Shown piece by piece: positions 3,256 to 38,913 of a stretch of 40,450 nt of DNA. The notes under the pieces were generated by a model. It saw only the letters and a program-made list of their open reading frames with translations. It made no database searches and was not told the DNA's origin. Origin of the DNA: a virus. The position numbers and the translations under genes were made by a program. The stretch covers positions 1 through 40,450 of IMG/VR virus record IMGVR_UViG_3300027760_000042. One strand, written 5' to 3'. Position 1 is the first letter of the stretch; each line of letters begins with the position of its first letter.

Positions 3256-3272
3256 TGTCTAGACTCTGTACT
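3256..3272. promoter_or_regulatory. 17-bp dyad element (degenerate) before SSB
   Basis: TGTCTAGACTCTGTACT fits the recurring GGTCTA-N5-TAGACC dyad with changes in the outer positions. It lies directly upstream of the AGGAGA ribosome-binding site of the SSB gene and touches the RNA polymerase stop codon. Confidence 0.55.
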
Positions 3273-5668: not shown

Positions 5669-5685
5669 GGTATAGAGTCTAGACT
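5669..5685. promoter_or_regulatory. 17-bp dyad element at the RNA polymerase gene
   Basis: GGTATAGAGTCTAGACT fits the dyad consensus. It begins two bases past the predicted -10 hexamer and so covers the expected transcription start and ends three bases before the start codon. This is a typical operator position. Confidence 0.65.
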
Positions 5686-5783: not shown

Positions 5784-6512
5784 TCAGGCGTTGGCGTAGT
5801 GAGCCGACAAAGCCTTCTCAAATCCGAGAACTCGCTGCGGTCGCTCGACCGGGTTGAGGGTCTTGGCCAGATGGGTGTATGCCGCGTGGAGATTCCACAG
5901 GCACAGATCGGAGGTCTCGTAGTCAAAAGACGGCTTGACACATTCATCGTAGAAGTCGATGACCTGAGCCTTGTGCAGTAGACCCTTGCGACCAAGATCC
6001 ACGGCAAAGGAGGCCAGTTGCTCCGTGCTTGTGTTGACCTTCTTGAGATCCTCGTAGAACTCGTTAGCCTTGGCGACCTCGTAACCAAAAGAGGCCACGG
6101 CATCGTCGATCATTTTCGGAAGACGATCCCACACATGGGCTGTGTGCTTAGTGCGAAGAACGTGATCAGCGACAATCATGCCGTTGGTGCAGACATACAC
6201 CGTGCCGCCGAAGATGATCCGATTGGAGATGGTCTTGTTGTAACTGTTCATCATGGCAACAGTCCACTTCATGCGACCATCGTTCGGAAGATCCGGCCCC
6301 TCAACATCGATCTTGCTGATGAAGATCGGATGCTTGCGGTGAACCATGTGGGTCTCGTTGTTGAGCGTGTAGCCCCGCAACTCAAAGCGGTTGCAAGCCT
6401 CCTTGAAGAAACTTGCCTGATCCACAGGGGTGTACGACTCGGTGCGCTCCGGGAGGGGAATGCTCTTGATGTCGGCCAGAGTACGGTAGGTAGTGCGAAT
6501 GCGAGTAGCCAT
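5784..6512 (-). CDS. DUF932-like protein
   Basis: A protein of 242 residues. The central segment MMNSYNKTISNRIIFGGTVYVCTNGMIV resembles the DUF932 core, in which an NSYD/G stretch is followed by a conserved (C/T)NG. This family is common in phages and plasmids and its biochemical role is not established. The C-terminal half is helical and charged, with FDYETSDLCLWNLHAAYTHLAK near the end. The start has a GAGAG-type site downstream of a perfect 17-bp dyad (6530-6546). A strong terminator lies about 45 bases after the stop, so the gene closes an early transcription unit just before the RNA polymerase gene. Confidence 0.7.
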   Translation of the reverse strand: MATRIRTTYRTLADIKSIPLPERTESYTPVDQASFFKEACNRFELRGYTLNNETHMVHRKHPIFISKIDVEGPDLPNDGRMKWTVAMMNSYNKTISNRIIFGGTVYVCTNGMIVADHVLRTKHTAHVWDRLPKMIDDAVASFGYEVAKANEFYEDLKKVNTSTEQLASFAVDLGRKGLLHKAQVIDFYDECVKPSFDYETSDLCLWNLHAAYTHLAKTLNPVERPQRVLGFEKALSAHYANA

Positions 6513-6529
6513 AGTGAATCTCTCTTTCT

Positions 6530-6546
6530 GGTCTAGTGTCTAGACC
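6530..6546. promoter_or_regulatory. 17-bp dyad element before DUF932-like gene
   Basis: GGTCTAGTGTCTAGACC has perfect outer arms GGTCTA/TAGACC. It lies 18 bases upstream of the DUF932-like start and supplies the TAG stop codon of the preceding small gene. Confidence 0.75.
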
Positions 6547-6743
6547 AAGGTGTGCGGAGGATTGTCGGTCGCCACACGGAGGAAACGCTCCTCGTCTGGC
6601 GCAATCCACAAGCCATGCTGTTCAGAACGCCAGAGTGCAAGTGTCGCGAGATTGAAAGATGTTTCCAAATCTTCTCGCATCCACCCGACATAGGCTTTCT
6701 GAATCGTGTCAGACATGATGAAGGTGTGCTTGCGTATCTCCAT
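6540..6743 (-). CDS. Hypothetical small early protein
   Basis: The open frame has 67 codons from ATG 6743. An internal ATG at 6716 (MSDTIQKAYVG) is an alternative start. Neither has a clear ribosome-binding site, and the predicted promoter -10 (6750-6755) would place +1 at or just before 6743, so translation may be leaderless or begin internally. The product is a mixed helical protein with several Trp residues. I recognise no family. It is supported mainly by its place between a promoter and a dyad in a compact early operon. Confidence 0.45.
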   Translation of the reverse strand: MEIRKHTFIMSDTIQKAYVGWMREDLETSFNLATLALWRSEQHGLWIAPDEERFLRVATDNPPHTLV

Positions 6744-6749
6744 GTGCGT

Positions 6750-6777
6750 ATATTACAGGAGAATCAGACATTGTCAA
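6750..6777 (-). promoter_or_regulatory. Sigma70-type promoter, TTGACA-N16-TAATAT
   Basis: On the minus strand a perfect TTGACA (6772-6777) is followed after 16 bases by TAATAT (6750-6755). The same 16-base spacing recurs in three other early promoters. The -35 lies inside the last codons of the gene upstream. Confidence 0.7.
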
Positions 6778-7018
6778 TAGGCATGATGTCGAGCCAACCG
6801 GGGCCAGTCATCTCCTCATTGCGCCACGCCTGAACGCTGAATACCTTGCCATCCGGGCGAACCATCACAAGGTTGATGACGTACTCGCCGGGATTGAGGC
6901 GGTCTTCGCCAATGCCGATGCCCATGACGGTTGCGTTCTTGAGAACAGACACACGGTTATAGGCATAGGTTGCGCCTGAGGGAGTGTCACGAGTTGGGGT
7001 CTTTCCAGTCCAAGCCAT
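6764..7018 (-). CDS. Hypothetical early protein
   Basis: I chose ATG 7018 (MAWTGKTPTRDTPSG) because AAGGAG lies 8 bases upstream. A longer frame to 7063 has no such site. The product is 84 residues with Gly-rich turns and alternating hydrophobic residues (GEYVINLVMVRPDGKVFSVQAW), suggesting a small beta fold. No known domain is recognised. The 3' end carries the -35 of the next promoter. It probably follows the 7096-7593 gene on the same transcript; a 7-bp hairpin (7060-7084) lies between them. Confidence 0.55.
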   Translation of the reverse strand: MAWTGKTPTRDTPSGATYAYNRVSVLKNATVMGIGIGEDRLNPGEYVINLVMVRPDGKVFSVQAWRNEEMTGPGWLDIMPIDNV

Positions 7019-7059
7019 TGCTATGCTCCTTGTAAGAGGAAAGCGCGTTATTTGGTAAG

Positions 7060-7084
7060 CCACGGTATGCGCGCCCCACCGTGG
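7060..7084 (-). promoter_or_regulatory. Intergenic hairpin, possible attenuator or processing site
   Basis: CCACGGT (7060-7066) and ACCGTGG (7078-7084) form a perfect 7-bp stem with an 11-base GC-rich loop. No U-tract follows on the minus strand, so it is not a standard terminator. Confidence 0.4.
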
Positions 7085-7095
7085 TATCGAAAGGA

Positions 7096-7593
7096 TTACT
7101 CAGACACCTTGGTGGAGATGCGCTCACAGAGGGCATCCATCACAGTCTCACGGAACTCAGCGTTGTTGACGAACTGCGTGACAATCTGCAGGGCCAACTG
7201 CTTGTGGTTGATGTGTTCGATGATCCTGTCGAAGTCGAGTTCCTCGGCAACGCGGGAGAGGTCGAGGCTCTTGGCCACCTCACGGATGCTCATGGCGTTG
7301 GCAACGTCATCGGTATCCACGTTGTCCGCGACATACTCCGCAAGGCTGCTCATGCAGAGGTGGTCAGCCACAACTGAGGTATCGATCTCTCTTGCAATGT
7401 CGCTTGCGGTGATCTCGGAGGCAACGCCCTCGGCAACGAGGGTCACGAACTCGGAGTCGTTGGCCAGTCGCTCGGCCACGGATCCGTTGGAGACAGCAGC
7501 GGAGGTGGTCAGGTCGGGCTGCGTGATCTGCTCACGAACGGCAGCGGTGATGGAGTCGAGCGAAGACGGGGCAATGGTGACGATCAGTTCCAT
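7096..7593 (-). CDS. Repeat-rich acidic protein with IA/ID/VA motif repeats
   Basis: A protein of 165 residues with an ATG preceded by GAAAGGA. From about residue 60 to 130 it is built of short degenerate repeats of the form I/V-A-x-x-(L/I)-D-x-S/D, for example DIAREID, VVADHL, SLAEYVAD, DVANAM, EVAKSLD, RVAEELD and RIIEHI. The period is about 10 residues. Such arrays suggest a helical solenoid or an extended helical scaffold. Similar unannotated proteins occur in other phages as far as I recall, but no function is known. Its leader is the archetype of the early cassette: sigma70 promoter, 5' hairpin, 17-bp dyad, ribosome-binding site. Confidence 0.65.
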   Translation of the reverse strand: MELIVTIAPSSLDSITAAVREQITQPDLTTSAAVSNGSVAERLANDSEFVTLVAEGVASEITASDIAREIDTSVVADHLCMSSLAEYVADNVDTDDVANAMSIREVAKSLDLSRVAEELDFDRIIEHINHKQLALQIVTQFVNNAEFRETVMDALCERISTKVSE

Positions 7594-7616
7594 GTTCTCA
7601 ATCCTTTCAAGATTGT

Positions 7617-7633
7617 GGTCTAGTGTCTAGACC
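7617..7633. promoter_or_regulatory. 17-bp dyad element before repeat-rich early gene
   Basis: GGTCTAGTGTCTAGACC is identical to the copy at 6530. It lies between the 5' hairpin and the GAAAGGA ribosome-binding site of the gene starting at 7593. Confidence 0.78.
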
Positions 7634-7641
7634 GGGTTGGT

Positions 7642-7696
7642 GTCGAGAGAACATCCCTCGACAAGTGAATAGTACCAGAAGAAACGAATTTGTCAA
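7642..7696 (-). promoter_or_regulatory. Sigma70 promoter plus 5' hairpin
   Basis: Minus-strand TTGACA (7691-7696), 16-base spacer, TACTAT (7669-7674). The shared TTCACTTGT follows, and a GTCGAG/CTCGAC hairpin (7642-7662) begins at the predicted +1. It drives the gene starting at 7593. Confidence 0.75.
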
Positions 7697-7980
7697 CGGC
7701 TCTCAATAGCCTTCTTCACATTCGGTCGGCTGCAGACAGACTGCTTCATGCGTTCAGCAATCTCATCGAAGTTGTTCTCCATGAATTGGTCAAGCCACTT
7801 GGGCCTGTTGTCTCCGTACATCCACACGCGCTCACCGTTGGTGGTCAGACGGGTGGCCTTGATTAGGGTCGAGTCAACACCGACAAACTCTGCACCCTCG
7901 TAGACATCTTCACACGCATAGGCGAGCGTCACGAAGACTTCGCGATGGTCAAAGACGAGGTCGATTGCGAACCGGGTCAT
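7693..7980 (-). CDS. Hypothetical early protein
   Basis: ATG 7980 overlaps the upstream TGA as ATGA and has AGGAGG nearby, which decides this start over longer frames. The product is 95 residues, starting MTRFAIDLVFDHREVF. It is predicted as a mixed alpha/beta fold with a beta-rich first half and a helical C-terminus (DQFMENNFDEIAERMKQSV). There are no catalytic motifs and I know no family. It is the last gene of the gp88-like transcription unit and is followed directly by the next promoter, whose -35 overlaps its stop. Confidence 0.6.
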   Translation of the reverse strand: MTRFAIDLVFDHREVFVTLAYACEDVYEGAEFVGVDSTLIKATRLTTNGERVWMYGDNRPKWLDQFMENNFDEIAERMKQSVCSRPNVKKAIESR

Positions 7981-8201
7981 TGATGCACCTCCTTGAAGCA
8001 ATCCCATCCACGCTCTTCTGCTTCCATCTCAGGGTGATTAGTTCCCTTGCAGATCTCACGCCTTGCCTCATCACGTTGTGCTTTGAGGATTGCGAGTTGG
8101 TTTGCGATGATGCCAAACTTGTTGGCATCTTCAAATGAAAGCCAATCTTGCTTTCGGTTGTCTTCAACGAAGTCGACAATAAATTGAATGAGGTTGTTCA
8201 T
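7977..8201 (-). CDS. RDEARRE-family small coiled-coil protein
   Basis: A protein of 74 residues. The second half reads QLAILKAQRDEARREIC, then a polar linker and the tail EERGWDCFKEVHQ. Both the helix and the RGWDCFK tail recur in the protein at the right edge of the window (QRDEARREAC and LRGWDCFKQEDGK), so the two are clear paralogues. The N-terminus (MNNLIQFIVDFVEDNRKQDWLSFE) is different. It is joined to both neighbours by 4-base ATGA overlaps. A helical adaptor or oligomer is likely; the function is unknown. Confidence 0.65.
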   Translation of the reverse strand: MNNLIQFIVDFVEDNRKQDWLSFEDANKFGIIANQLAILKAQRDEARREICKGTNHPEMEAEERGWDCFKEVHQ

Positions 8202-8533
8202 GCGTTCTCCTTGTTGATGCGTTCATCGAAGATTTCAAGCAGAATCTTGGCCCACTTTGCTCGCGTCTTGCGAGTAGCGTTGGTCTTGAGTCCGAGGAAA
8301 GGACGTAGTGAGTCCACAGTAAACGGCATATTGTCGACGTTCTTGAAAGTTCCTACCAGTCTGCGATCAGTCTCAAGCCTGAACGCAAACTCCTTGATGG
8401 TGACGGTGGTGATCTCGTCAATGCCAACGACCATGGTTGCCCAGATCATGCATTCACAGGTATCAGTCATCACCATCTGGGAGTTCCAACAAGCGGACTG
8501 ATCGCATTCTTTGACGTTCCAAGTAAGTGCCAT
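8198..8533 (-). CDS. Conserved phage hypothetical protein
   Basis: I chose ATG 8533 (MALTWNVKECD) because AAAGGAAA lies upstream and the 17-bp dyad sits just before that. The frame open to 8578 would run through the dyad. The product is 111 residues. The centre (IWATMVVGIDEITTVTIKEFAFRL) and the C-terminal stretch (LRPFLGLKTNATRKTRAKWAKIL) look like a pattern I associate with unannotated phage proteins, but I cannot name a domain. Cys residues cluster near the N-terminus (C10, C15 and about C27-C30 in the sequence), possibly by chance. It is coupled to the next gene by ATGA. Confidence 0.6.
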   Translation of the reverse strand: MALTWNVKECDQSACWNSQMVMTDTCECMIWATMVVGIDEITTVTIKEFAFRLETDRRLVGTFKNVDNMPFTVDSLRPFLGLKTNATRKTRAKWAKILLEIFDERINKENA

Positions 8534-8549
8534 TGTGAAGTTTCCTTTC

Positions 8550-8566
8550 GGTATAGAGTCTAGAAT
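8550..8566. promoter_or_regulatory. 17-bp dyad element after gp88-like gene
   Basis: GGTATAGAGTCTAGAAT fits the dyad consensus. It lies in the short gap between the gp88-like stop and the next ribosome-binding site. Confidence 0.65.
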
Positions 8567-9372
8567 CAAGCGTTCCACACGAACACACTATTGAGGTTGA
8601 TCTTGCCCTTGGCCTTGAGGCCGATGACATAGCCGCCCTTGGGGTCGAGAAACCGGGCATCGGACAGGTCGCCGTTGATGACACGGGCACCCATGCACCG
8701 CTCGGGCAGATCTTTGCGGAACACTACGGCCACGTTGCCACCTGCATTGAGGTACTGGATGCATTGGTCGTGATTGTGACCGGAGTAGGACAGGGTCAGG
8801 TGCAGCGGAAACGCCATGGGCCTAGGCTTCCGAGAGCGAGAGTCCATGGCCCGAGCAAATGACTTGGTGTAGTCATAGTTGTTGGCACAGAACTCGTAGA
8901 TCTGCGGAGCAACGTGTTCCCACGGAATGTCCGAGAGGACGTTAGAGCGGAACGCAAAGCCGTCATGGCCGTGCTTTTTACAGGCCGCATCCAGTTCCTT
9001 GTACAGTTGGCGGAAGAACGTATGCGGATCGGCCATCAGGTACACGGTCTTGGCGATGCGGGCAGCACGGACATTGGAGAACTTGGATCGCCCCGCAGTC
9101 ACGCCAAGGCAAGCAGCCTCACACTCAGGGCTACGCCACGGGCAGAGTTGGTAGCCCGAGGAACCTGCAGGAGCCAAGGTCAGGCCGTAGATGGGCACGG
9201 AACCCTTGGCCAACTTGGTGTTTGCCCCGGGAGGAGTCAGGATCTTGCGATCCCGTCCGCTGAAGGGCGTCTGATACAGGAAGCCACGGAACGCAGCAGC
9301 AGCGGCTTCACGAATGGCATCCCACTTGGGAGCCTTGGCCTCGTTGTTGAGGACGTTGAGAGGAGTAGTCAC
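8566..9372 (-). CDS. gp88-like phage protein with Cys cluster
   Basis: A protein of 268 residues. The GTG start is supported by GAAAGGA 8 bases upstream. The N-terminal third contains a Cys motif CPWRSPECEAACLG followed by GRSKFSNVRAARIAKT. I recognise this as the signature of the phage 'gene product 88' family. Further conserved-looking parts are DGFAFRSNVLSDIPWE, LTLSYSGHN and a C-terminal beta region (NVAVVFRKDLPE, GYVIGLKAKG). The three Cys could bind a metal or iron-sulfur centre; this is inference. The family has no established role. It is the first gene behind an early promoter with the hairpin-dyad leader, so it is probably expressed soon after infection. Confidence 0.75.
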   Translation of the reverse strand: MTTPLNVLNNEAKAPKWDAIREAAAAAFRGFLYQTPFSGRDRKILTPPGANTKLAKGSVPIYGLTLAPAGSSGYQLCPWRSPECEAACLGVTAGRSKFSNVRAARIAKTVYLMADPHTFFRQLYKELDAACKKHGHDGFAFRSNVLSDIPWEHVAPQIYEFCANNYDYTKSFARAMDSRSRKPRPMAFPLHLTLSYSGHNHDQCIQYLNAGGNVAVVFRKDLPERCMGARVINGDLSDARFLDPKGGYVIGLKAKGKINLNSVFVWNA

Positions 9373-9392
9373 GGTCGTTTCCTTTCGAGTTT

Positions 9393-9409
9393 GGTCTAGA
9401 CACTAGACC
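9393..9409. promoter_or_regulatory. 17-bp dyad element before gp88-like gene
   Basis: GGTCTAGACACTAGACC is the exact reverse complement of the copies at 6530 and 7617. The element therefore occurs in both orientations relative to its genes. Confidence 0.78.
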
Positions 9410-9422
9410 GGATTGGAGAGAG

Positions 9423-9473
9423 GGGACACCATGTCCCACAAGTGAATAGTATCCTGCAATCAGGAATTGTCAA
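9423..9473 (-). promoter_or_regulatory. Sigma70 promoter plus 5' hairpin for gp88-like gene
   Basis: Minus-strand TTGACA (9468-9473), 16-base spacer, TACTAT (9446-9451). TTCACTTGT follows, and a GGGACA/TGTCCC hairpin (9423-9437) lies at the predicted 5' end of the message. Confidence 0.75.
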
Positions 9474-9753
9474 TAGGCGGCAGAGCCACGACATGGGCAA
9501 TGATCTTGGCCACATCGTCGGAAGTCTGCCAACCGATCACATCGTCATCGTGAGTCCAGTCGGGCATCCGATAGAGACCGTTTGCACAGAAGATGGCAAC
9601 TTCGGCGTTCTTACACGCACTTGTAAACGACTTTCCACGGTTGTTGCAGTAAGCCAGTCGATGAAACTGGATGCTGATGGTGTAACCGTTGGAGAACTGC
9701 ATATGGATGCCGTTGTGGTTGCTGCTTGCGGCGTTTTGAGTGAGGCTGATCAT
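9460..9753 (-). CDS. Conserved phage hypothetical protein
   Basis: A protein of 97 residues from ATG 9753 with AAAGGAAC upstream. The N-terminal half (NGIHMQFSNGYTISIQFHRLAYCNN) is a beta-strand pattern. The middle holds a short AEVAIF strand and the end an acidic D-DDVIGWQTSDDVAKII element. The combination of a 'sensitive to beta' N-terminus and a 'GWQT-DDVA' C-terminus is one I associate with unannotated phage proteins often found near gp88-like genes, so the gene is probably real. No function can be assigned. Its 3' end overlaps the promoter of the gp88-like gene. Confidence 0.6.
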   Translation of the reverse strand: MISLTQNAASSNHNGIHMQFSNGYTISIQFHRLAYCNNRGKSFTSACKNAEVAIFCANGLYRMPDWTHDDDVIGWQTSDDVAKIIAHVVALPPIDNS

Positions 9754-9764
9754 TTCTAGGTTCC

Positions 9765-9781
9765 TTTCTAAAGTCTAGATT
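9765..9781. promoter_or_regulatory. 17-bp dyad element (weak arms)
   Basis: TTTCTAAAGTCTAGATT keeps the inner TCTA-N5-TAGA but not the outer GG/CC. It lies directly upstream of the GAAAGGAAC ribosome-binding site of the gene starting at 9753. Confidence 0.55.
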
Positions 9782-10182
9782 CAGAGGGCCGTTTCGATGA
9801 TGTCTGCGATCTCGTTGAAGTTCAAGCCACGACAATCGTTGATGTCGGAAATACTGTCGGTATGAAAGACTCCGTGCTTATCAGTCCAAGTGATCCGGGG
9901 ATCCATGTCCGGCAGTTCTGCCCATGCACGAACACGAAACGGCAACGTACCCATGCAGTCATCCATGGTGTACATGGTCACCGAGTCTCGGCTGTGCTGC
10001 CATCCATCCTCTTCCATGAGCATTGCACCACGAGTCACCATCCACAGGTTGCACAGCACCCCAAGGGCACAGAAACAGAGTTGGCCAGATTCCCGATCAT
10101 TGCGGCACAGGGCTCCACTACCCTTCGTGTACTCACCTGAGCGGAGCGCAGAAACCCAAAGAGCCTTGATGTTCTTGTTCAC
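9781..10182 (-). CDS. Conserved phage hypothetical protein (LWVSALRSGEY type)
   Basis: The GTG start at 10182 has GAAAGGA upstream; the frame extends further but would run through the leader. The product is 133 residues. Features are an N-terminal KALWVSALRSGEYTKGSG, a Cys-containing hydrophobic core QLCFCALGVLCNLW, and a C-terminal LNFNEIADIIETAL helix. This arrangement (WVxALRSGxY, FCxLGVLCD/N, FxEIADxIE) recurs in many phages as an unannotated family. The role is unknown; the LNDxGxxFxEIA pattern suggests a compact helical protein. It is the first gene after a promoter with hairpin and dyad in the leader. Confidence 0.7.
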   Translation of the reverse strand: MNKNIKALWVSALRSGEYTKGSGALCRNDRESGQLCFCALGVLCNLWMVTRGAMLMEEDGWQHSRDSVTMYTMDDCMGTLPFRVRAWAELPDMDPRITWTDKHGVFHTDSISDINDCRGLNFNEIADIIETAL

Positions 10183-10201
10183 GGTCGTGTCCTTTCGATT
10201 C

Positions 10202-10218
10202 GGTCTAGACTTTAGAAC
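10202..10218. promoter_or_regulatory. 17-bp dyad element, early leader
   Basis: GGTCTAGACTTTAGAAC lies between the 5' hairpin and the GAAAGGA site of the gene starting at 10182. Confidence 0.68.
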
Positions 10219-10282
10219 TCTCTCACGTTGAGAGAGAACTATGTCCACATCTGAATACTACCACAGATACCCAAGTTGTCAA
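10218..10282 (-). promoter_or_regulatory. Sigma70 promoter plus 5' hairpin
   Basis: Minus-strand TTGACA (10277-10282), 16-base spacer, TAGTAT (10255-10260). A CTCTCTC/GAGAGAG hairpin with ACGTT loop (10218-10236) follows in the leader. Confidence 0.72.
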
Positions 10283-10469
10283 GGGTATCTAATTGGTCTA
10301 CACAATGGTCTACTTGCTATAGTACCTAAGTTACCTAGTACTAGTCTTATATCTTATACCTGTATCTAGATCTATATTAGATACATATATAAGGACTATG
10401 GGTGGACTAAAGATTATACCTAAGTATAGACTCTAGAATGGATGTCTTGCTGAAGCGGTCGCGCCGGGT
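10283..10469. other. AT-rich gene-free stretch with short repeats
   Basis: No credible gene. The stretch 10300-10425 is strikingly AT-rich, with many TAT and CTAG-type words. It contains GGTCTAC twice 12 bases apart (about 10296-10315), repeated CCTAAG/CCTAGT words, and a minus-strand TATAAT (10413-10418) next to a dyad copy. It adjoins the 22-bp tandem repeats, so together they are a candidate replication origin or control region. Confidence 0.5.
10423..10439. promoter_or_regulatory. 17-bp dyad element beside a TATAAT
   Basis: AGTATAGACTCTAGAAT fits the dyad. A minus-strand TATAAT (10413-10418) lies 4 bases downstream, so the dyad would overlap the -35 side of that promoter. Confidence 0.55.
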
Positions 10470-10569
10470 AATGTTGGTAATGACGCAACCTAATGTTGGT
10501 AACGGTGTAACCTGATGTTGGTGATAGTGAAACGTGATGTGCAACCTGATGTTGGTGATAGTGAATTAC
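10470..10569. repeat. 22-bp tandem repeat array
   Basis: Four 22-bp units begin at 10470, 10492, 10514 and 10548, with a 12-bp partial unit at 10536-10547. The shared core is (A/G)ATGTTGGTRA. Units differ at several positions. The array is not coding in any supported frame and is iteron-like. Confidence 0.75.
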
Positions 10570-10570
10570 C

Positions 10571-10614
10571 AAAAAATCGGGGCCAAAAAAAACAGGGGTC
10601 AAAAAAAATGGGGG
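10571..10614. repeat. Three A-tract/G-tract repeats
   Basis: Three successive units of about 14-16 bp, each a run of 6-8 A followed by a short spacer and 4-5 G, lie between the tandem repeats and a dyad copy. On the minus strand these are C-runs followed by T-runs. They may bend DNA or act as weak terminators. Confidence 0.55.
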
Positions 10615-10625
10615 CCGCCCGGGCG

Positions 10626-10642
10626 AGTCTAGACTCTATACC
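10626..10642. promoter_or_regulatory. 17-bp dyad element in early gap
   Basis: AGTCTAGACTCTATACC fits the dyad and is nearly the reverse complement of the RNA polymerase copy. No gene starts directly after it on either strand. Confidence 0.6.
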
Positions 10643-10657
10643 CGAGCGGCCACCAAT

Positions 10658-10693
10658 GGAAAGCCCCGGCCCCGCACTAGGCGGAACCGGGGC
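10658..10693 (-). terminator. Possible terminator after Ala-rich gene
   Basis: Plus arms 10664-10675 and 10681-10692 form a 12-bp GC-rich stem (G-U pairs in the middle) with a 5-base loop, 57 bases after the Ala-rich gene. Only CTTTCC follows, so the U-tract is weak. Confidence 0.5.
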
Positions 10694-10749
10694 AGGTTAA
10701 TCGGCTCATTCAAACACTAGCCAGAGGATGAAATCGGCGAGGATCCAAT

Positions 10750-11571
10750 TCACGCCTTCCCTCCCTTCGCTTCGGCCATGGCCTCGGCCTCCTGCCTCTT
10801 CGCCTCCATGGCCTCGGCCTTCGATGCGGCCTTCGCGAGCAATGCGGCGGCGGCGAGCCCGTCATCCTTCGTCATCTTCATGGCAAACTTATACAGGCGA
10901 TCGATCATGACGGATTCCGATTCTGGTTCGTCCCCCGACACTTGCTTCGCGGCCTTTCGGCAAGCGTCAAGCGAAGGCTTCGTCTCTTCGTTCCCATCCT
11001 GCGCAACATCGGCCATATCGCGAATCTTGGCGGGCTCACCCTTCGCTGCGCTGGCGATTGCCCGGAGTCCTTCCATCGGAAACTTGGCCGCGCGTTCCGT
11101 GCCGATGGCCGCAGTCGCGTTCCCGATGTCCTTCAGATAGTAGACGGTGGCCTTCGCGAGTCCCGCACCCGTGAGGCAGCGCACGACCCATGCCGCGAGG
11201 CTAATCCCGTAGGCGCGAGGAAGGCCAGTAGCGTTCGCTTCGGCGATGGCTACTGCGGCTTCACGGGCTCCGCCTTCGACTGCGGTTGCCTTCGCGATGA
11301 CGTTCGCTTCGGCGGCCTTCATGGCATCACTAAGCACGACGATGCCTTCGGCCTTCGCTTCCGCCTTCGTCATGCCTTCAGCGGCCTTCGGAGCCTCTGC
11401 GGCCTTCGGCTCCCCCTTGCCTGCCTTCGGCATGGCAGGAGCCTCAGGGGCGGCGACTGCGGTGACCTTCGGCCCCTTACCCTTCGGCTTGGTGGTCGGC
11501 TCAACGGGCACGATCATTGCTCCCGCAGGGCCGTAGACGGTGGTGGTGGCGGTGGTGGTTGCGTTCTTCAT
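10750..11571 (-). CDS. Ala-rich early protein of unknown function
   Basis: A 273-residue protein with ATG at 11571 and GAAAGGA upstream. The first 80 residues are low-complexity (Thr-rich start, then Pro/Lys/Ala with repeated PKAAEAPKAAE and KAEAKAE). The central part (residues about 100-220) is better mixed, with GLPRAYGISLAAWVVRCLTGAGLAKATVYYLKDIG, and could be a folded helical domain. The C-terminus is again Ala/Glu/Lys-rich (KAEAMEAKRQEAEAMAEAKGG). Codon use is dominated by GCC/GAA/AAG, producing many CGAAGGC words. It is the first gene after the gene-free region that may hold the genome ends, the usual place for host-takeover genes; that role is inference only. Confidence 0.65.
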   Translation of the reverse strand: MKNATTTATTTVYGPAGAMIVPVEPTTKPKGKGPKVTAVAAPEAPAMPKAGKGEPKAAEAPKAAEGMTKAEAKAEGIVVLSDAMKAAEANVIAKATAVEGGAREAAVAIAEANATGLPRAYGISLAAWVVRCLTGAGLAKATVYYLKDIGNATAAIGTERAAKFPMEGLRAIASAAKGEPAKIRDMADVAQDGNEETKPSLDACRKAAKQVSGDEPESESVMIDRLYKFAMKMTKDDGLAAAALLAKAASKAEAMEAKRQEAEAMAEAKGGKA

Positions 11572-11715
11572 GGCGTTGCATCCTTTCGATGCGCCTTTGG
11601 TTCGACTACCGACCCCAACGCGGGATCCGCCGTAGCCGTTCCTTCAGGCTCACGCATTGTCGCACAAATTCGGGAACGCGCAAGTACCTTTCGAGAAAGT
11701 TTCTCAGATTAATTC

Positions 11716-11732
11716 GGTCTAGGCTCTAGACC
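11716..11732. promoter_or_regulatory. 17-bp dyad element, upstream of Ala-rich gene
   Basis: GGTCTAGGCTCTAGACC has perfect outer arms. It lies 145 bases upstream of the Ala-rich start and 56 bp from a second perfect-arm copy. Confidence 0.72.
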
Positions 11733-11771
11733 GCCTTAGGCCGATAACTAAACGGCGAGAGAGAGGCTCAC

Positions 11772-11788
11772 GGTCTAGACCCTAGACC
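11772..11788. promoter_or_regulatory. 17-bp dyad element, second of a pair
   Basis: GGTCTAGACCCTAGACC has perfect outer arms. The two copies are 56 bp apart centre to centre. Confidence 0.72.
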
Positions 11789-11993
11789 TGCCCCCGCTGC
11801 CCATCGGATAGCCATTGCATAGCCTACGGTTGCCCATTGGCTTGCGCGTTGGCTATTCATAGGGCGCTCGCCGCGTGTGATGACCGTGCTGCCTCGTGCG
11901 CGGCTGCGGGGTACCCCCACGGGGGGACGCGCGGGCCGTGCGTATAATTAAACCACTTCAGATTTTTTTTCCAAAACTAAAAGGCATCCGTAT

Positions 11994-12063
11994 CTGCCAA
12001 GTGGGATTCCCATTACCCACATTGCCGATCATCGGCATCCTCGGGAGGTTGGATCATTGGCAG
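11994..12063 (-). other. Cloverleaf-like inverted-repeat cluster, possible structured late 3' end
   Basis: An outer 7-bp pair CTGCCAA/TTGGCAG (11994-12000, 12057-12063) encloses three hairpins: GTGGG/CCCAC (12001-12020), GCCGAT/ATCGGC (12024-12036) and CCTC/GAGG (12039-12048). On the minus strand it starts 5 bases after the stop of the gene at 12069. It resembles a tRNA outline but lacks a 7-base anticodon loop and a proper T-loop. A CCTTTTAGTTTT stretch follows, so termination is possible. Confidence 0.5.
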
Positions 12064-12068
12064 ACGGC

Positions 12069-12446
12069 CTAGGATGGCTCAGGATCGCGTCCAGCAGACT
12101 GGATGGGCTTGGAGTCATCCTCGTCACCCAGATCGTTCTGGGGGCATTCTGGAGCCCTTCCTAGAAAGACCTGTTCAGTCAGGGCCGGGTTCTGTCGGAA
12201 GATCTGCATCAGGGAGACCTCAAGGGTACGGATCTTGGATTCCGATAAACCCAAATCGTGTATTTCATTCACCATTTCTAGAATTTCATGAAGTACTGTA
12301 CTACAGTACATATAATCTTCTAGTTCTTCTGAGATACAGATCTTAGGAGTAGGAAAGAAGAAGAATTCTCCAAATTCATTCTTAGGCATCTTTGTGGTGA
12401 TCACAGGTATACTGTAAGGGTACCACTTGATTACTAGGTTCTCCAT
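12069..12446 (-). CDS. Small protein resembling a phage metallopeptidase family, HEILE variant
   Basis: A 125-residue product from ATG 12446 (AAAGG upstream); an alternative GTG at 12494 lacks a site. The core STVLHEILEMVNEIHDLGLSESKIRTLEVSLMQIFRQNPAL resembles small phage proteins whose equivalent stretch reads LLHEILH, as in zinc-peptidase-type HExxH motifs, followed by a conserved LGL(S/D)E..IR.LE..L.Q.(F/L)..NP. Here the second His of HExxH is Glu (H53, E54, E57), so zinc binding or catalysis is doubtful. The acidic C-terminus (NDLGDEDDSKP) is disordered. It is the last gene before the gene-free region. The function is uncertain. Confidence 0.6.
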   Translation of the reverse strand: MENLVIKWYPYSIPVITTKMPKNEFGEFFFFPTPKICISEELEDYMYCSTVLHEILEMVNEIHDLGLSESKIRTLEVSLMQIFRQNPALTEQVFLGRAPECPQNDLGDEDDSKPIQSAGRDPEPS

Positions 12447-12458
12447 TTGGCTGCCTTT

Positions 12459-12498
12459 GTACACGTTATTTGGACTTGTCGATTCCACGTACACGTTA
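12459..12498. repeat. Direct repeat GTACACGTTA, 30 bp apart
   Basis: Identical 10-bp copies lie at 12459-12468 and 12489-12498, exactly 30 bp (about three helical turns) apart. The first is 12 bases upstream of the start codon of the HEILE protein, so an operator is possible. Confidence 0.45.
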
Positions 12499-12515
12499 AA
12501 GCAACCAGAACATGA

Positions 12516-13343: not shown

Positions 13344-13571
13344 TTAATGTTTTGCACGGTTTACAGACCGAGGCACAATCCTGAGATTAGACATACGATT
13401 GTCTTTTGGGTTGCCGTTCTTGTGGTCAATGTCTTTGTTATCGCCCTTTTGAACAGCACCCTTTCTGATCATAAGACGCCGCATCTTGTTTCGAGAAGCG
13501 CGATCCTTTTTTGCAGAGGGGCTGCTTTGAAACTTAGCGTACTCGTCTTTATAATTCCTAGGTTTAGCCAT
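13344..13571 (-). CDS. HNH endonuclease (small)
   Basis: A 75-residue protein. The start ATG 13571 overlaps the upstream stop as TAATG. The Lys/Arg-rich helix (KKDRASRNKMRRLMIRKGAVQKGDNK) precedes the HNH core DIDHKNGNPKDNRMSNLRIVPRSVNRAK, with the first His at residue 50, Asn 52-54 and the terminal Asn/Arg block NLR. This is the compact HNH form seen beside terminase genes in many phages, where it can assist packaging, and it is also found as a mobile homing nuclease. The Cys pairs of larger HNH proteins are absent. A packaging link is suggested by position, four genes after the large terminase in transcription order. Confidence 0.82.
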   Translation of the reverse strand: MAKPRNYKDEYAKFQSSPSAKKDRASRNKMRRLMIRKGAVQKGDNKDIDHKNGNPKDNRMSNLRIVPRSVNRAKH

Positions 13572-13804
13572 TAGCAGTCCCATCGCTTTCTTGCAGCCAA
13601 GCCGCGTTCGCCCTTCCAAGAACGACTACGCGCACAGAATGACTTGTGCCTTGAGTTGTTCTTGTCAGTAGAAGGGGCTTTCAGATTGCTCCCGGTTTCG
13701 CGATTGTACTTAGCGCGGCCCTTAGCAGTTAACCCGGCTCCCTTGGGGATGGATAACTTCTCGCCGCGGCCGACCGACAAATTGGGCTTCTTATTACTTG
13801 GCAT
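13571..13804 (-). CDS. DUF6321-like small basic protein
   Basis: A 77-residue basic protein. The signature (AGLTAKGRAKYNRETGSNLKAPST, then RHKSFCARSRSWKG and a terminal AARKRWDC) matches a small phage and bacterial family I know as DUF6321, in which L(T/S)xKGRxKYNxxTGxNLKAP and KSFCARM recur. The function of the family is unknown. The conserved Cys and basic residues suggest nucleic acid contact. The start overlaps the end of the previous gene and its stop overlaps the HNH start, so the four genes from the terminase onward are translationally coupled. Confidence 0.7.
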   Translation of the reverse strand: MPSNKKPNLSVGRGEKLSIPKGAGLTAKGRAKYNRETGSNLKAPSTDKNNSRHKSFCARSRSWKGERGLAARKRWDC

Positions 13805-29975: not shown

Positions 29976-29990
29976 TCTAGGATCCTAGAA
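29975..29990. promoter_or_regulatory. Perfect 16-bp palindrome over the gp11-like ribosome-binding site
   Basis: TTCTAGGATCCTAGAA is a perfect palindrome that covers the AGGA site and ends at the start codon. Its outer half (TTCTAG/CTAGAA) resembles the arms of the early dyad. It could be a hairpin or a binding site. Confidence 0.5.
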
Positions 29991-36611: not shown

Positions 36612-36811
36612 TCATCCATCTGGGCTTCAGCAGCCCGACCAAGGACTTCAATAAGTCCAAAGGCTCCGTGCATTGTGGACTTGACGCAGATGCTGTAGTT
36701 GTCGCTGTTCTTTCCCTTCGTGCTGAACCCGACAAACACCAGTTCATCGAAACGCCGTTTCAGTTCGTGGACTAGTTCATCATCCGTCATGTACTCAATT
36801 GGTGTAGACAT
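36608..36811 (-). CDS. Small conserved hypothetical protein
   Basis: A 67-residue protein directly before the exonuclease and coupled to it by an ATGA overlap. The pattern DDELVHELKRRFDELVFVGFSTKG...MHGAFGLIEVLGRAAEAQ is a helix followed by two strands and a helix; I associate it with unannotated small phage proteins. The ribosome-binding site is weak (AAGAGA). It starts inside the end of the LAGLIDADG frame, so it would be cut if that element is mobile. No function assigned. Confidence 0.6.
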   Translation of the reverse strand: MSTPIEYMTDDELVHELKRRFDELVFVGFSTKGKNSDNYSICVKSTMHGAFGLIEVLGRAAEAQMDE

Positions 36812-37127
36812 TCTTAAGTCTCTTAAGGGTTTTGATGTGTCTAAGTCGTTCTGACTTTATGGTTGCTGCAGCCGCCTGAAACAAGGCGCAGATCTGTGAG
36901 TGCTTGATGATGCTGTATCGAGCCACGCAGGAGAGGTAGGTCAGGGCTTTCTTTCCATAGAGGGTCCAGACGTAAACGCCTTTCTCCTTAATCCTGACGC
37001 TGCCACCCCACTTTTCCTGCATTGAAACAAGCACTCCATAATGTTTGTTCGTGACTTCAATGCTTGGGCTCTTGTTCCAACGAATGCAGCCCTCGCCATC
37101 AAGCAGTCCGGCTGCATAGGCATTCAA
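36795..37127 (-). CDS. LAGLIDADG-type homing endonuclease-like protein
   Basis: A 110-residue frame that begins at TTG 37125-37127, overlapping the DNA polymerase TGA as TTGA; a longer frame (to 37217) would run inside the polymerase. The N-terminus LNAYAAGLLDGEGCIRW contains one LAGLIDADG-like motif (AAGLLDGEG, residues 5-13). A beta-rich saddle follows (SIEVTNKHYGVLVSMQEKWGGSVRIKEKGVYVWTLYGKKALTYL) and a basic helix (IKSERLRHIKTLKRLKN). One motif per chain would mean a homodimer. The start codon is inferred, with no clear ribosome-binding site, so translation is probably coupled to polymerase. It may target a site near the polymerase gene. Confidence 0.7.
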   Translation of the reverse strand: MNAYAAGLLDGEGCIRWNKSPSIEVTNKHYGVLVSMQEKWGGSVRIKEKGVYVWTLYGKKALTYLSCVARYSIIKHSQICALFQAAAATIKSERLRHIKTLKRLKNVYTN

Positions 37128-38887
37128 TGTGTTTCTGCCCAGTTGGCCCCCACGCGGTACTCGCCGTCCAGAGGACAACGGAAATCGAAATCTGCTCCCG
37201 CCTGTTGAATAGCCCATACGACAATATTACCAACCGACTCTGCGTAGTTCTTGGAAACCATGAACTGATATTCGTCATGGACCGAAGCAACCTGTTCAAC
37301 ATCCATTTTCACAGGCTGCTTGTCAAACTGTACCCATGCATTGACGCAAGCCTTCTTCATCACGACTGCACCTGCAGACTGAAGCAGCGTATTGAGTGCT
37401 GCGTATTCAGAACGGGGATACAACGGTCTAAAGTCTAGACCACGCAGGAACCCATTGGATGCAAGCGATAGGGCAACATCAGCCTTGAGCCGCGTGTACG
37501 CAGGAACCTTGGCCTCAAAGTTGGCACGAGCGTTGGCCCCTCGCCGCTTGTCGCCGCCAAGGACCATGCCCAACTTGTCGTTCCCTGCGCCATAGATCAG
37601 CGCATAGATCGCGCCCTTGGCCTGATTGCGGGCTGCCTTATGTTCCGGGTTGGCCTTGTCCTGCGGCACATCCTTGATGAGGCCGAAGGCAATGGCGTTG
37701 CTCCAATGGATGTCTCCAGTAAGAATTTCTTGGGCGTATTTCTTACCGTCATATTTGCCAAGGTAGTGAGCGAGGCAGCGCAGTTCCAGACCAGAGGCAT
37801 CCACGCCAACAAGCACCTTGCCACGGGAAGGAACAAACAGGCTGCGGTACTCCTTGTCCGTGGGAACCTGAGCCATGTTCGGACTGCGGTGGGTGCAGCG
37901 GCCCGTGATGGCTCCGTTGGTGTTCACACGGCCATGCAGACGGCCATCAGGAGCCACCGCCTTGAGCCAAGCCTCGTCACCGTCTGCCAGTTGTCCCAGA
38001 CGCTTCTGAACGGTCAGGTAGCGGCTCAGGATCTTGGCCTCGGGGTAGTCGAGCGAAGCCAGTACAGCCTCGTCAACGCGGGGCTTGCCATCGGGAGTCA
38101 ACTCAGTTGGAGCCCATGAGTACTTTGTCATCAAACGATAAGCAATCTGCGTTCGACTGCCGGGATTGAAGATCTCAACCTTGGACTTCAGACGCTTACC
38201 AGTCTTTTCTGACCTGCGCTCCGTCACGATGGGAGGGAAGACCTCCTGCAGTTTCTGCTCAATATCCAGTTGATCCTTAAGCAGGGTTCCGTGCAGACGC
38301 TGAGCAGCCTCAATGTCAAAGGGGAAGCCAACGCGCTCCTGCTCACGGATGATGGCTGCGAACTGATGCTCCAGAGTCGCCGCTGTAGCCGCACTAGGCA
38401 TGGATGGGTGGTTGAGGAGGTGCTGATGCAGAGCCGCAGTAACACGAACATCCTGCTTGCAGTACTCCCGCAGTTGCTCGGTGTCCTTGGTAAAGTCAGG
38501 AGCCTCGCCCTTGGCAATGCCAAGACGAATGCCCCAAGCCTTCAGCGACTGACTGCCAACCAACTCCTTCGGCAGGGCCTTGATCTGAAAGTCCCGCTCT
38601 CGCTGATCTGCATGAAGCAGACGGCACATGAGAAGTGTGTCCACAACCTTTGCAGGATCTGGCTTAAACGTGGGATACAACTTCTGAAGAGCCGGGATGT
38701 CAAATGACTGGATGTTGTGTCCGATGATCTGATCTGCATTCTGCAGCAGCGTCAGGCCATCCTTGATGTCCACGATCTTGGGGTCTTCGCCATCGATGCT
38801 GACGGCCATGCAAAGCACGGTCTTCACATCAGACAAGTGGATCCAATCGTGGATGTCGTTCGTTTCAATATCAAAGTAAATGTTCAT
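37124..38887 (-). CDS. T7-type DNA polymerase (family A)
   Basis: A 587-residue polymerase with proofreading (T7 gp5 is 704). Exonuclease motifs: DIETN (D6, E8), IIGHNIQSFDIPAL (H57, D63) and EYCKQDV (Y142, D146). Polymerase motifs: A VGVDASGLELRCLAHYL (D363), B RNQAKGAIYALIYGAG (about 420-435), C VASVHDEYQ (H537, D538, E539). It ends RVGANWAETH, close to the T7 end. Between the conserved LQEVFPP and FNPGSR there are only about 22 residues, whereas T7 has about 80 there, including the thioredoxin-binding loop. Host thioredoxin may therefore not be its processivity factor. A degenerate dyad lies 10 bases before the start. Confidence 0.96.
   Translation of the reverse strand: MNIYFDIETNDIHDWIHLSDVKTVLCMAVSIDGEDPKIVDIKDGLTLLQNADQIIGHNIQSFDIPALQKLYPTFKPDPAKVVDTLLMCRLLHADQRERDFQIKALPKELVGSQSLKAWGIRLGIAKGEAPDFTKDTEQLREYCKQDVRVTAALHQHLLNHPSMPSAATAATLEHQFAAIIREQERVGFPFDIEAAQRLHGTLLKDQLDIEQKLQEVFPPIVTERRSEKTGKRLKSKVEIFNPGSRTQIAYRLMTKYSWAPTELTPDGKPRVDEAVLASLDYPEAKILSRYLTVQKRLGQLADGDEAWLKAVAPDGRLHGRVNTNGAITGRCTHRSPNMAQVPTDKEYRSLFVPSRGKVLVGVDASGLELRCLAHYLGKYDGKKYAQEILTGDIHWSNAIAFGLIKDVPQDKANPEHKAARNQAKGAIYALIYGAGNDKLGMVLGGDKRRGANARANFEAKVPAYTRLKADVALSLASNGFLRGLDFRPLYPRSEYAALNTLLQSAGAVVMKKACVNAWVQFDKQPVKMDVEQVASVHDEYQFMVSKNYAESVGNIVVWAIQQAGADFDFRCPLDGEYRVGANWAETH
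37425..37441. promoter_or_regulatory. 17-bp dyad sequence inside polymerase gene
   Basis: GGTCTAAAGTCTAGACC has perfect arms but is coding (RGLDFRP region). It could be a chance match or an internal regulatory site. Confidence 0.4.
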
Positions 38888-38896
38888 GGCGTTCTC

Positions 38897-38913
38897 CTTA
38901 TAGACTCTAGACT
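38897..38913. promoter_or_regulatory. 17-bp dyad element (degenerate) before polymerase
   Basis: CTTATAGACTCTAGACT lies 10 bases upstream of the DNA polymerase start and overlaps its AAGGAG site region and the stop of the HTH gene. Confidence 0.55.

Follow-up and report, generated by a model that had tools for sequence, protein, structure and literature searches.

A 5' RNA hairpin and a genome-specific, DNA-type palindrome combined in the early-gene leaders of uncultured T7-like phages

The viral contig IMGVR_UViG_3300027760_000042 (40,450 bases, analysed over its whole length and called the window here) is transcribed on the minus strand and carries a T7-like gene set, comprising a single-subunit RNA polymerase (5665-3272), a T7-type SSB, RusA, primase/helicase, DNA polymerase, portal, capsid, tail genes and terminase. 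The subject of this study is the leader that precedes three of its early genes, e1 (10182-9781), e3 (9372-8566) and e7 (7593-7096), in which a sigma70-type promoter is followed by a hairpin, a palindrome (hereafter the dyad) and a ribosome-binding site. Three further genes are relevant: e9 (6743-6540), e10 (6512-5784) and X (11571-10750), which occupies the left end of the early region and immediately precedes the early promoters. No DNA-level match to cultured phages was obtained when early and late parts of the window were searched, and the cultured phages that encode a relative of its RNA polymerase (Pelagibacter, Roseobacter and Rhizobium phages) reach no more than 36% identity. Viral contigs hold closer relatives, with RNA polymerases 73-100% identical to that of the window. 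The family set comprises 31 contigs of uncultured T7-like phages, the window counted in; some are fragments, in which the absence of a gene carries little weight. Early gene content is variable across this family and the backbone genes are conserved. All transcription start sites in the window and the family are predicted.

The motif TTGACA-N16-TANTAT-TCANNTGT occurs three times in the window, exactly at the three leaders (0.00 expected), and the looser TTGACA-N15..19-TANTAT four times (0.09 expected). That these leaders share one plan had been proposed in a sequence-only reading of the window. The promoters, hairpins, dyads and GAAAGGA are indeed all present, far from chance and all on the minus strand, and the plan is shared by about 31 related contigs. 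The three hairpins named in that reading (GTCGAGGGATGTTCTCTCGAC, GGGACATGGTGTCCC and CTCTCTCAACGTGAGAGAG) were found in the window. Their placing at the predicted +1 holds for the promoters at 7696 and 9473, with the hairpin 6-9 nucleotides (nt) after the -10 element, but not for the promoter at 10282, where it begins 19 nt after the -10, about 12 nt later; the claim that hairpin position is kept fails for this one of the three leaders. The dyad is likewise present in all three, as a perfect 7-3-7 palindrome at 7617 and 9393 and in imperfect form at 10202, but it is not specific to these promoters, because copies are also found at promoterless genes and outside leaders. The sequence-only reading had lumped together two elements of different chemistry, a 5' RNA hairpin and a DNA-type dyad. 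A search of positions 6000-12500 of the window with Rfam matched nothing.

Leader sequences differ widely across the family, and the hairpin is kept in most of them. In 26 strong leader hairpins, the distance from the -10 to the start of the hairpin is 6-10 nt in 16 cases and 16-22 nt in 8. The folding z-score averaged -1.37 across 35 candidate leaders, a few of which sit within the RNA polymerase gene and dilute the signal. In eight distinct 21-nt hairpins (9+3+9), 97.2% of the cells pair, versus 85.1% in shuffles, and two-sided, compensatory changes are seen at 6 of the 9 stem pairs; the covariation score is 0.698 versus 0.406, reached by 0 of 500 shuffles, and slid pairing registers give 0.27 or less. 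Because the eight hairpins are related to one another and belong to two leaders (e7 and e3), the counts are not independent events. An alignment-free test, in which stems were picked on Watson-Crick pairs alone and the remaining departures were counted, gave 17 G-U, 1 A-C and 9 other departures in 32 leaders (p=1.4e-4 for G-U versus A-C). RNA tolerates G-U and not A-C, and a DNA palindrome has no reason to distinguish them. Judged by these patterns of change, the 5' hairpin is a selected RNA structure; the compensatory changes among relatives were looked for and found, which bears out what had been supposed for it.

The first transcribed bases would usually fold into a hairpin of 6-11 base pairs (bp) with a small loop, which would most likely protect the 5' ends of early messages against 5'-end-dependent decay. 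Stem-loops at the 5' terminus are known to stabilise mRNA (Emory et al. 1992, cited in PMC3997798), and a hairpin at the predicted 5' end agrees with this. Like the ompA-type stabilising stem-loops cited there, it lies at or within a few bases of the predicted mRNA 5' end; unlike them, as far as that citation describes them, it is a repeated module of phage early leaders. Going by its title, the T4-like PeSL element (Comeau et al. 2014) also joins a promoter and a stem-loop repeated in a plastic early region. The title presents PeSL as a promoter-terminator composite, whereas the hairpin described here lies downstream of the promoter, has no T run and is followed by a putative operator and a ribosome-binding site.

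In the window the dyad reads GGTCTAG-N3-CTAGACC, with 7-bp arms and a 3-bp centre. Genomes of the family hold about 10-16 copies each, most of which directly precede the ribosome-binding site of an early gene, of SSB or of DNA polymerase. The commonest class of perfect palindrome reaches 3-15 copies in a genome, whereas resampled genomes give no more than 1-3. Of 201 sites, 140 have a ribosome-binding site and a start downstream, at a median of 19 nt. Dyads avoid the late half of the genome, which holds 10 of 90 sites, the other 80 lying outside it. One late copy in the window, TCTAGGATCCTAGA at 29976-29989, touches the start codon of tail tubular A and comes after a terminator-like hairpin. 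A promoter for the phage RNA polymerase was also considered and is ruled out by the palindromic form of the dyad and its near-absence from the late half; no other repeated 10-12-mer resembling a phage promoter was found in the genomes checked.

The dyad had been suggested to be an RNA structure that holds translation back, a view that found no support. At the pairs flanking and inside the dyad core we counted 63 G-U and 67 A-C departures (p=0.79), and one-mismatch sites gave 2 G-U, 3 A-C and 15 other. It is because these departures show no G-U preference, unlike those of the 5' hairpin, that the dyad is read as DNA-type. In addition, copies flank X with no ribosome-binding site following, and what is kept is specific to the genome and not to a structure. 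On this evidence the dyad behaves like a DNA operator, not like an RNA switch. The same counts bear on the possibility that the dyad acts as an RNA hairpin beside the ribosome-binding site, either as the target of a phage RNA-binding protein or simply by tuning translation. The short median distance to the start codon would suit such a role, perfect copies could form a stem of 6-7 bp with a loop of 3-4 nt, and the centre keeps one orientation in three genomes (G019, G003 and G028). Both orientations are found in G009, G010, G013, G023, G025 and the window, however, and window variants such as TCTAG-ACT-CTATA pair poorly yet recur at several sites. With the missing G-U preference and the copies beside X, these points leave an RNA hairpin improbable.

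Each genome has its own palindrome, present in perfect form up to 15 times. The half-site core is TCTAG (TCTAA in G009 and G034, TATAG in G010), and the outer bases, the centre and the spacer length (3 or 4) vary between genomes, as in TTCTAGGATCCTAGAA of G015, TTCTAGTCACTAGAA of G019, TTCTAGAACTCTAGAA of G028, GTCTAA(GAC/GTC)TTAGAC of G009 and TTATAG(ACT/AGT)CTATAA of G010. G015 and G019 have RNA polymerases that are 98% identical, yet every early or middle dyad differs between them, being TCTAGGATCCTAGA in one and TCTAGTCACTAGA in the other. At the SSB, DNA polymerase, e10 and RNA polymerase leaders of the two genomes, the dyad is switched while the adjoining 60 bp upstream share 92-98% identity. 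Separate drift at each site cannot produce such a concerted switch, which calls either for one trans-acting partner shared by all sites or for copying that homogenises them. In the genomes compared, the dyad is genome-specific and switched in concert, and a phage-specific palindrome is what would be seen if every phage encoded a DNA-binding regulator of its own. The dyads could alternatively be recombination linkers for the shuffling of early genes among related phages, as proposed for boundary motifs elsewhere. The contrast between variable early genes and conserved backbone would agree with this, as would two dyads lying 29 bp apart in G015 and the involvement of the Cluster O dyads in deletions (PMC4351075). 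Such linkers need to be shared, yet the dyad differs between close relatives with nearly identical flanks; moreover, the palindromic form and the strict position 5' of ribosome-binding sites would be unnecessary. A linker function is in our view quite improbable.

The kind of element is wider than the T7-like family, since unrelated phage contigs carry the TCTAG-N3-CTAGA palindrome, often just 5' of starts (10 copies in G036, 33 in G037 and 6 in G038). Its orientation relative to transcription is mixed in G037, with 14 TAA and 9 TTA where the direction was callable. Neither X nor a clear shared partner was found in these three contigs; a generic helix-turn-helix (HTH) match was seen in G037 only. 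In a metagenome-assembled genome of 2.7 megabases, every GTCTAGANTCTAGAC site is on the phage contig, and in this one testable case the palindrome is not a host motif.

If the dyad is a DNA operator, gene X is the best candidate for its partner. Dyads lie on both sides of X in 13 of the 13 genomes inspected, on one side mostly upstream of its predicted promoter and on the other either between X and the terminator or just past the terminator, and no gene directly follows the downstream copy. The X protein diverges fast, with only 36% identity between G015 and G019. In Mantel tests on 14-18 related genomes, which are weak evidence for a physical partner, X distance correlated with dyad distance at r=0.60, compared with 0.26-0.31 for backbone genes; the other early genes gave 0.47 (e3), 0.24 (e10), 0.51 (e7), 0.60 (e9) and, for e1 over 13 genomes, 0.71. 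The correlation of X given e3 was 0.48 (p=0.0007), and that of e3 given X was 0.05. The conserved core of X is modelled with a pLDDT of 95.6 as an all-helical domain with an HTH-like segment, AGLAKATVYYLKDIG. From its setting and its model, X is a likely, not an established, partner of the dyad, and we would give this assignment a little less than an even chance.

Another protein could bind the operators. The HTH_7-like protein encoded at 39248-38907 (113 amino acids, conserved upstream of DNA polymerase in 17 relatives) has a better recognised HTH than X (E 8.6e-4) and adjoins the DNA polymerase dyad. Its recognition helix is nearly invariant across dyad classes, however, and its distances follow those of the dyad no better than the backbone does (r=0.25 versus 0.26-0.31), so this candidate is disfavoured. 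Among other early proteins, the distances of e1, e7 and e9 correlate with dyad class about as well as those of X; e9 is short and not HTH-like. Against a host regulator, no dyad lies outside the phage contig in the one host-like metagenome-assembled genome tested. Taken together, a partner other than X is possible and somewhat unlikely.

Several observations weigh against an operator bound by X. In most genomes the upstream dyad lies above the X promoter, so that X does not evidently regulate itself by blocking that promoter. With e7 or e9 taken into account, the correlation of X with the dyad falls to 0.36 or 0.25 respectively and its advantage is lost; X is then not clearly the better correlate. 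Nothing significantly related to X was found in Pfam, PHROGs, cultured phages or fold libraries, and with no recognisable relative its description as DNA-binding rests on the predicted HTH-like segment. The centre has a single or nearly single orientation in G019 (11:0), G003 (6:0) and G028 (11:1), which is unexpected for a free symmetric operator, and the placing of the dyad so closely before the ribosome-binding site would suit a role in RNA as well. Finally, the late copy at 29976 is identical in the window, G015 and G019, regardless of the genome's own class.

We propose that each leader combines several independent modules. Transcription would start from a strong host sigma70 promoter, and the transcript would usually begin with the putatively protective hairpin; downstream of the hairpin come the DNA palindrome (half-site TCTAG, 3-4 bp spacer) and then the ribosome-binding site. 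The palindromes would be genome-specific operators over the early and the first middle genes, most likely bound by a dimeric phage-coded protein, for which X, itself flanked by these putative operators, is the best candidate. A protein bound past the promoter and between genes would stop the host RNA polymerase, forming a stoperator-like roadblock. With dyads lying past the promoter but ahead of the ribosome-binding site, and also at gene boundaries further inside, an elongation roadblock is a better fit than promoter blocking. The early genes would be shut off once X accumulates, and a second phage of the same class may be silenced too. No phage integrase (PF00589) and no HTH_3 repressor was found in ten records that include the window and four relatives of about 39-40 kilobases, partition genes being outside the search. 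Lysogeny is therefore unlikely, and early shut-off, perhaps with same-class exclusion, would be the most economical purpose. The composite leader as a whole, that is an RNA hairpin plus the operator of a phage-coded protein (best candidate X) acting as a roadblock in phages with no detected integrase, has by our estimate an even chance of being correct.

The dyads might instead be prophage-type stoperators, with which a temperate phage maintains lysogeny. Cluster A mycobacteriophages such as L5 and Bxb1, which are temperate, have asymmetric 13-bp stoperators whose orientation follows transcription and to which a repressor binds as a monomer, halting elongation (PMC6550527, PMC9283540). The dyads resemble them in number, in forming genome-specific site sets, in occupying short intergenic spaces, in surrounding the (here candidate) regulator gene and in varying in sequence with the regulator sequence. 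The sites described here are palindromes with arms of 5-7 bp, not asymmetric; their centre is mixed in orientation in most genomes and fixed in G019, G003 and G028. Asymmetry and a temperate lifestyle are what define the Cluster A sites. With neither integrase nor HTH_3 repressor found in the ten records, a function in lysogeny appears very unlikely.

The closest known element is the 7-3-7 dyad repeat of the Cluster O mycobacteriophages. In Corndog this is the 17-bp dyad TGTTCGG-NNN-CCGAACA, with 34 copies genome-wide, about one third of them inside genes; it was described in 2015, with no function or binding protein given (PMC4351075). Both elements have 7-bp arms that are invariant within a genome, a 3-bp centre in both orientations and many intergenic copies, and the failure to recover stable Cluster O lysogens is a further likeness to the T7-like family. 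The dyads described here differ in being TCTAG-based, with 4-bp centres in some relatives, and in their placing, with about 10-16 copies that closely precede ribosome-binding sites of early and first middle genes, largely outside the late half, instead of genome-wide and often in coding sequence. They also form a series of related phages with switched dyad sequence. X is absent from the phage collection searched. Cluster K phages likewise have repeats tied, for a subset of genes, to translation starts, with an inverted-repeat consensus that differs between subclusters; the start-associated SAS is asymmetric (13 bp, GGGATAGGAGCCC) and overlaps the start region, and the ESAS is a 17-bp inverted repeat with a 4-13 bp spacer (PMC3203893). 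Unlike SAS, the element described here is a palindrome, TCTAG-N3/4-CTAGA. Distant relatives with a single-subunit RNA polymerase and sigma70 early promoters include the MarR-controlled temperate T7-like phages of the LUZ100 type (PMC10134795), which carry MarR and an integrase, unlike the phages studied here, where no integrase match was found. In five cultured distant relatives, of which the early part of the genome was checked, the dyad was not found.

At 6777 the window has a fourth promoter, of the same class as those of the three leaders, that lacks a leader altogether. It precedes e9, and the -10 of this strong sigma70 promoter ends exactly 6 nt before the ATG in all 19 distinct family sequences compared. 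These sequences have neither hairpin nor dyad nor ribosome-binding site at e9, which is predicted to be translated from a leaderless message. Around X, iteron-like repeats (TTCACTATCACCAACATCAGGTT and similar) occupy 10470-10580, between X and the first early promoter, and TCACTATCATC-like repeats are found at the matching place in relatives; they are a possible origin or another binding region. A stretch resembling CTCTC...CCGTTT(A/C)(G/T)TTAT (11733-11771), upstream of the X promoter and beside the dyad, is conserved in most genomes and may mark the genome end. Elsewhere in the window, an HNH_3 endonuclease gene (13344-13619) and a weak LAGLIDADG_3 match (36795-37217) are possible homing endonucleases. 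The positions of the features are collected in Table 1.

Table 1. Leader elements, dyad copies and X-associated features of the window
Feature	Position	Strand	Remark
sigma70-type promoter of e1	10255..10282	-	TTGACA-N16-TAGTAT
leader hairpin of e1, CTCTCTCA-ACG-TGAGAGAG	10218..10236	-	begins 19 nt after -10
imperfect dyad GTTCTAAAGTCTAGACC, e1 leader	10202..10218	-	
ribosome-binding site GAAAGGA, e1	10190..10196	-	
sigma70-type promoter of e3	9446..9473	-	TTGACA-N16-TACTAT
5' hairpin of e3, GGGACA-TGG-TGTCCC	9423..9437	-	at predicted +1
dyad GGTCTAG-TGT-CTAGACC, e3 leader	9393..9409	-	perfect palindrome
ribosome-binding site GAAAGGA, e3	9380..9386	-	
sigma70-type promoter of e7	7669..7696	-	TTGACA-N16-TACTAT
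5' hairpin of e7, TGTCGAGGGA-TGT-TCTCTCGACA	7641..7663	-	predicted +1; compensatory changes in relatives
dyad GGTCTAG-ACA-CTAGACC, e7 leader	7617..7633	-	perfect palindrome
ribosome-binding site GAAAGGA, e7	7602..7608	-	
promoter of leaderless gene e9	6750..6777	-	contrast case: no hairpin, dyad or Shine-Dalgarno sequence
dyad before e10	6530..6546	-	exact GGTCTAGACACTAGACC
variant dyad GATTCTAGACTCTATACC before gene starting near 8532	8550..8567	-	
variant dyad ATCTAGACTTTAGAAAG before gene 9753-9460	9764..9780	-	
variant dyad before RNA polymerase gene	5669..5685	-	
degenerate dyad before SSB gene (3244-2630)	3258..3270	-	
variant dyad before DNA polymerase gene (38887-37124)	38899..38911	-	
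variant dyad upstream of first early promoter	10425..10437	-	
gene X, 273-amino-acid orphan Ala-rich helical protein, candidate dyad-binding	10750..11571	-	dyad-flanked, tracks dyad class
dyad upstream of X promoter	11772..11788	-	
second dyad upstream of X promoter	11716..11732	-	
predicted X promoter TTGCGC-N16-GACAAT	11656..11683	-	weak consensus match in window; strong TTGACA in several relatives
terminator after X	10663..10693	-	
variant dyad downstream of X, past its terminator	10625..10642	-	no gene directly after

With about 31 contigs, many palindrome switches and a candidate partner gene, the question of what the 7-3-7 dyad does becomes testable, and the near-identical pair G015/G019 lets binding specificity be swapped in a simple assay. 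The leaders also offer a clean example of how the ratio of G-U to A-C departures can tell RNA-level from DNA-level palindromes, and the conserved, predicted leaderless e9 is useful for translation studies. For the biology of the family, diversifying site classes would fit competition between phages. These could be a lytic T7-like class in which X, an orphan protein encoded by the first gene, recognises a palindrome peculiar to its phage at almost all early and first middle genes and stops host RNA polymerase there, giving early shut-off and exclusion of same-class competitors, with a specificity that diversifies as all operators of a genome switch in concert; this would amount to a relationship resembling heteroimmunity without lysogeny, a possibility that we put forward tentatively and regard as doubtful in its full form.

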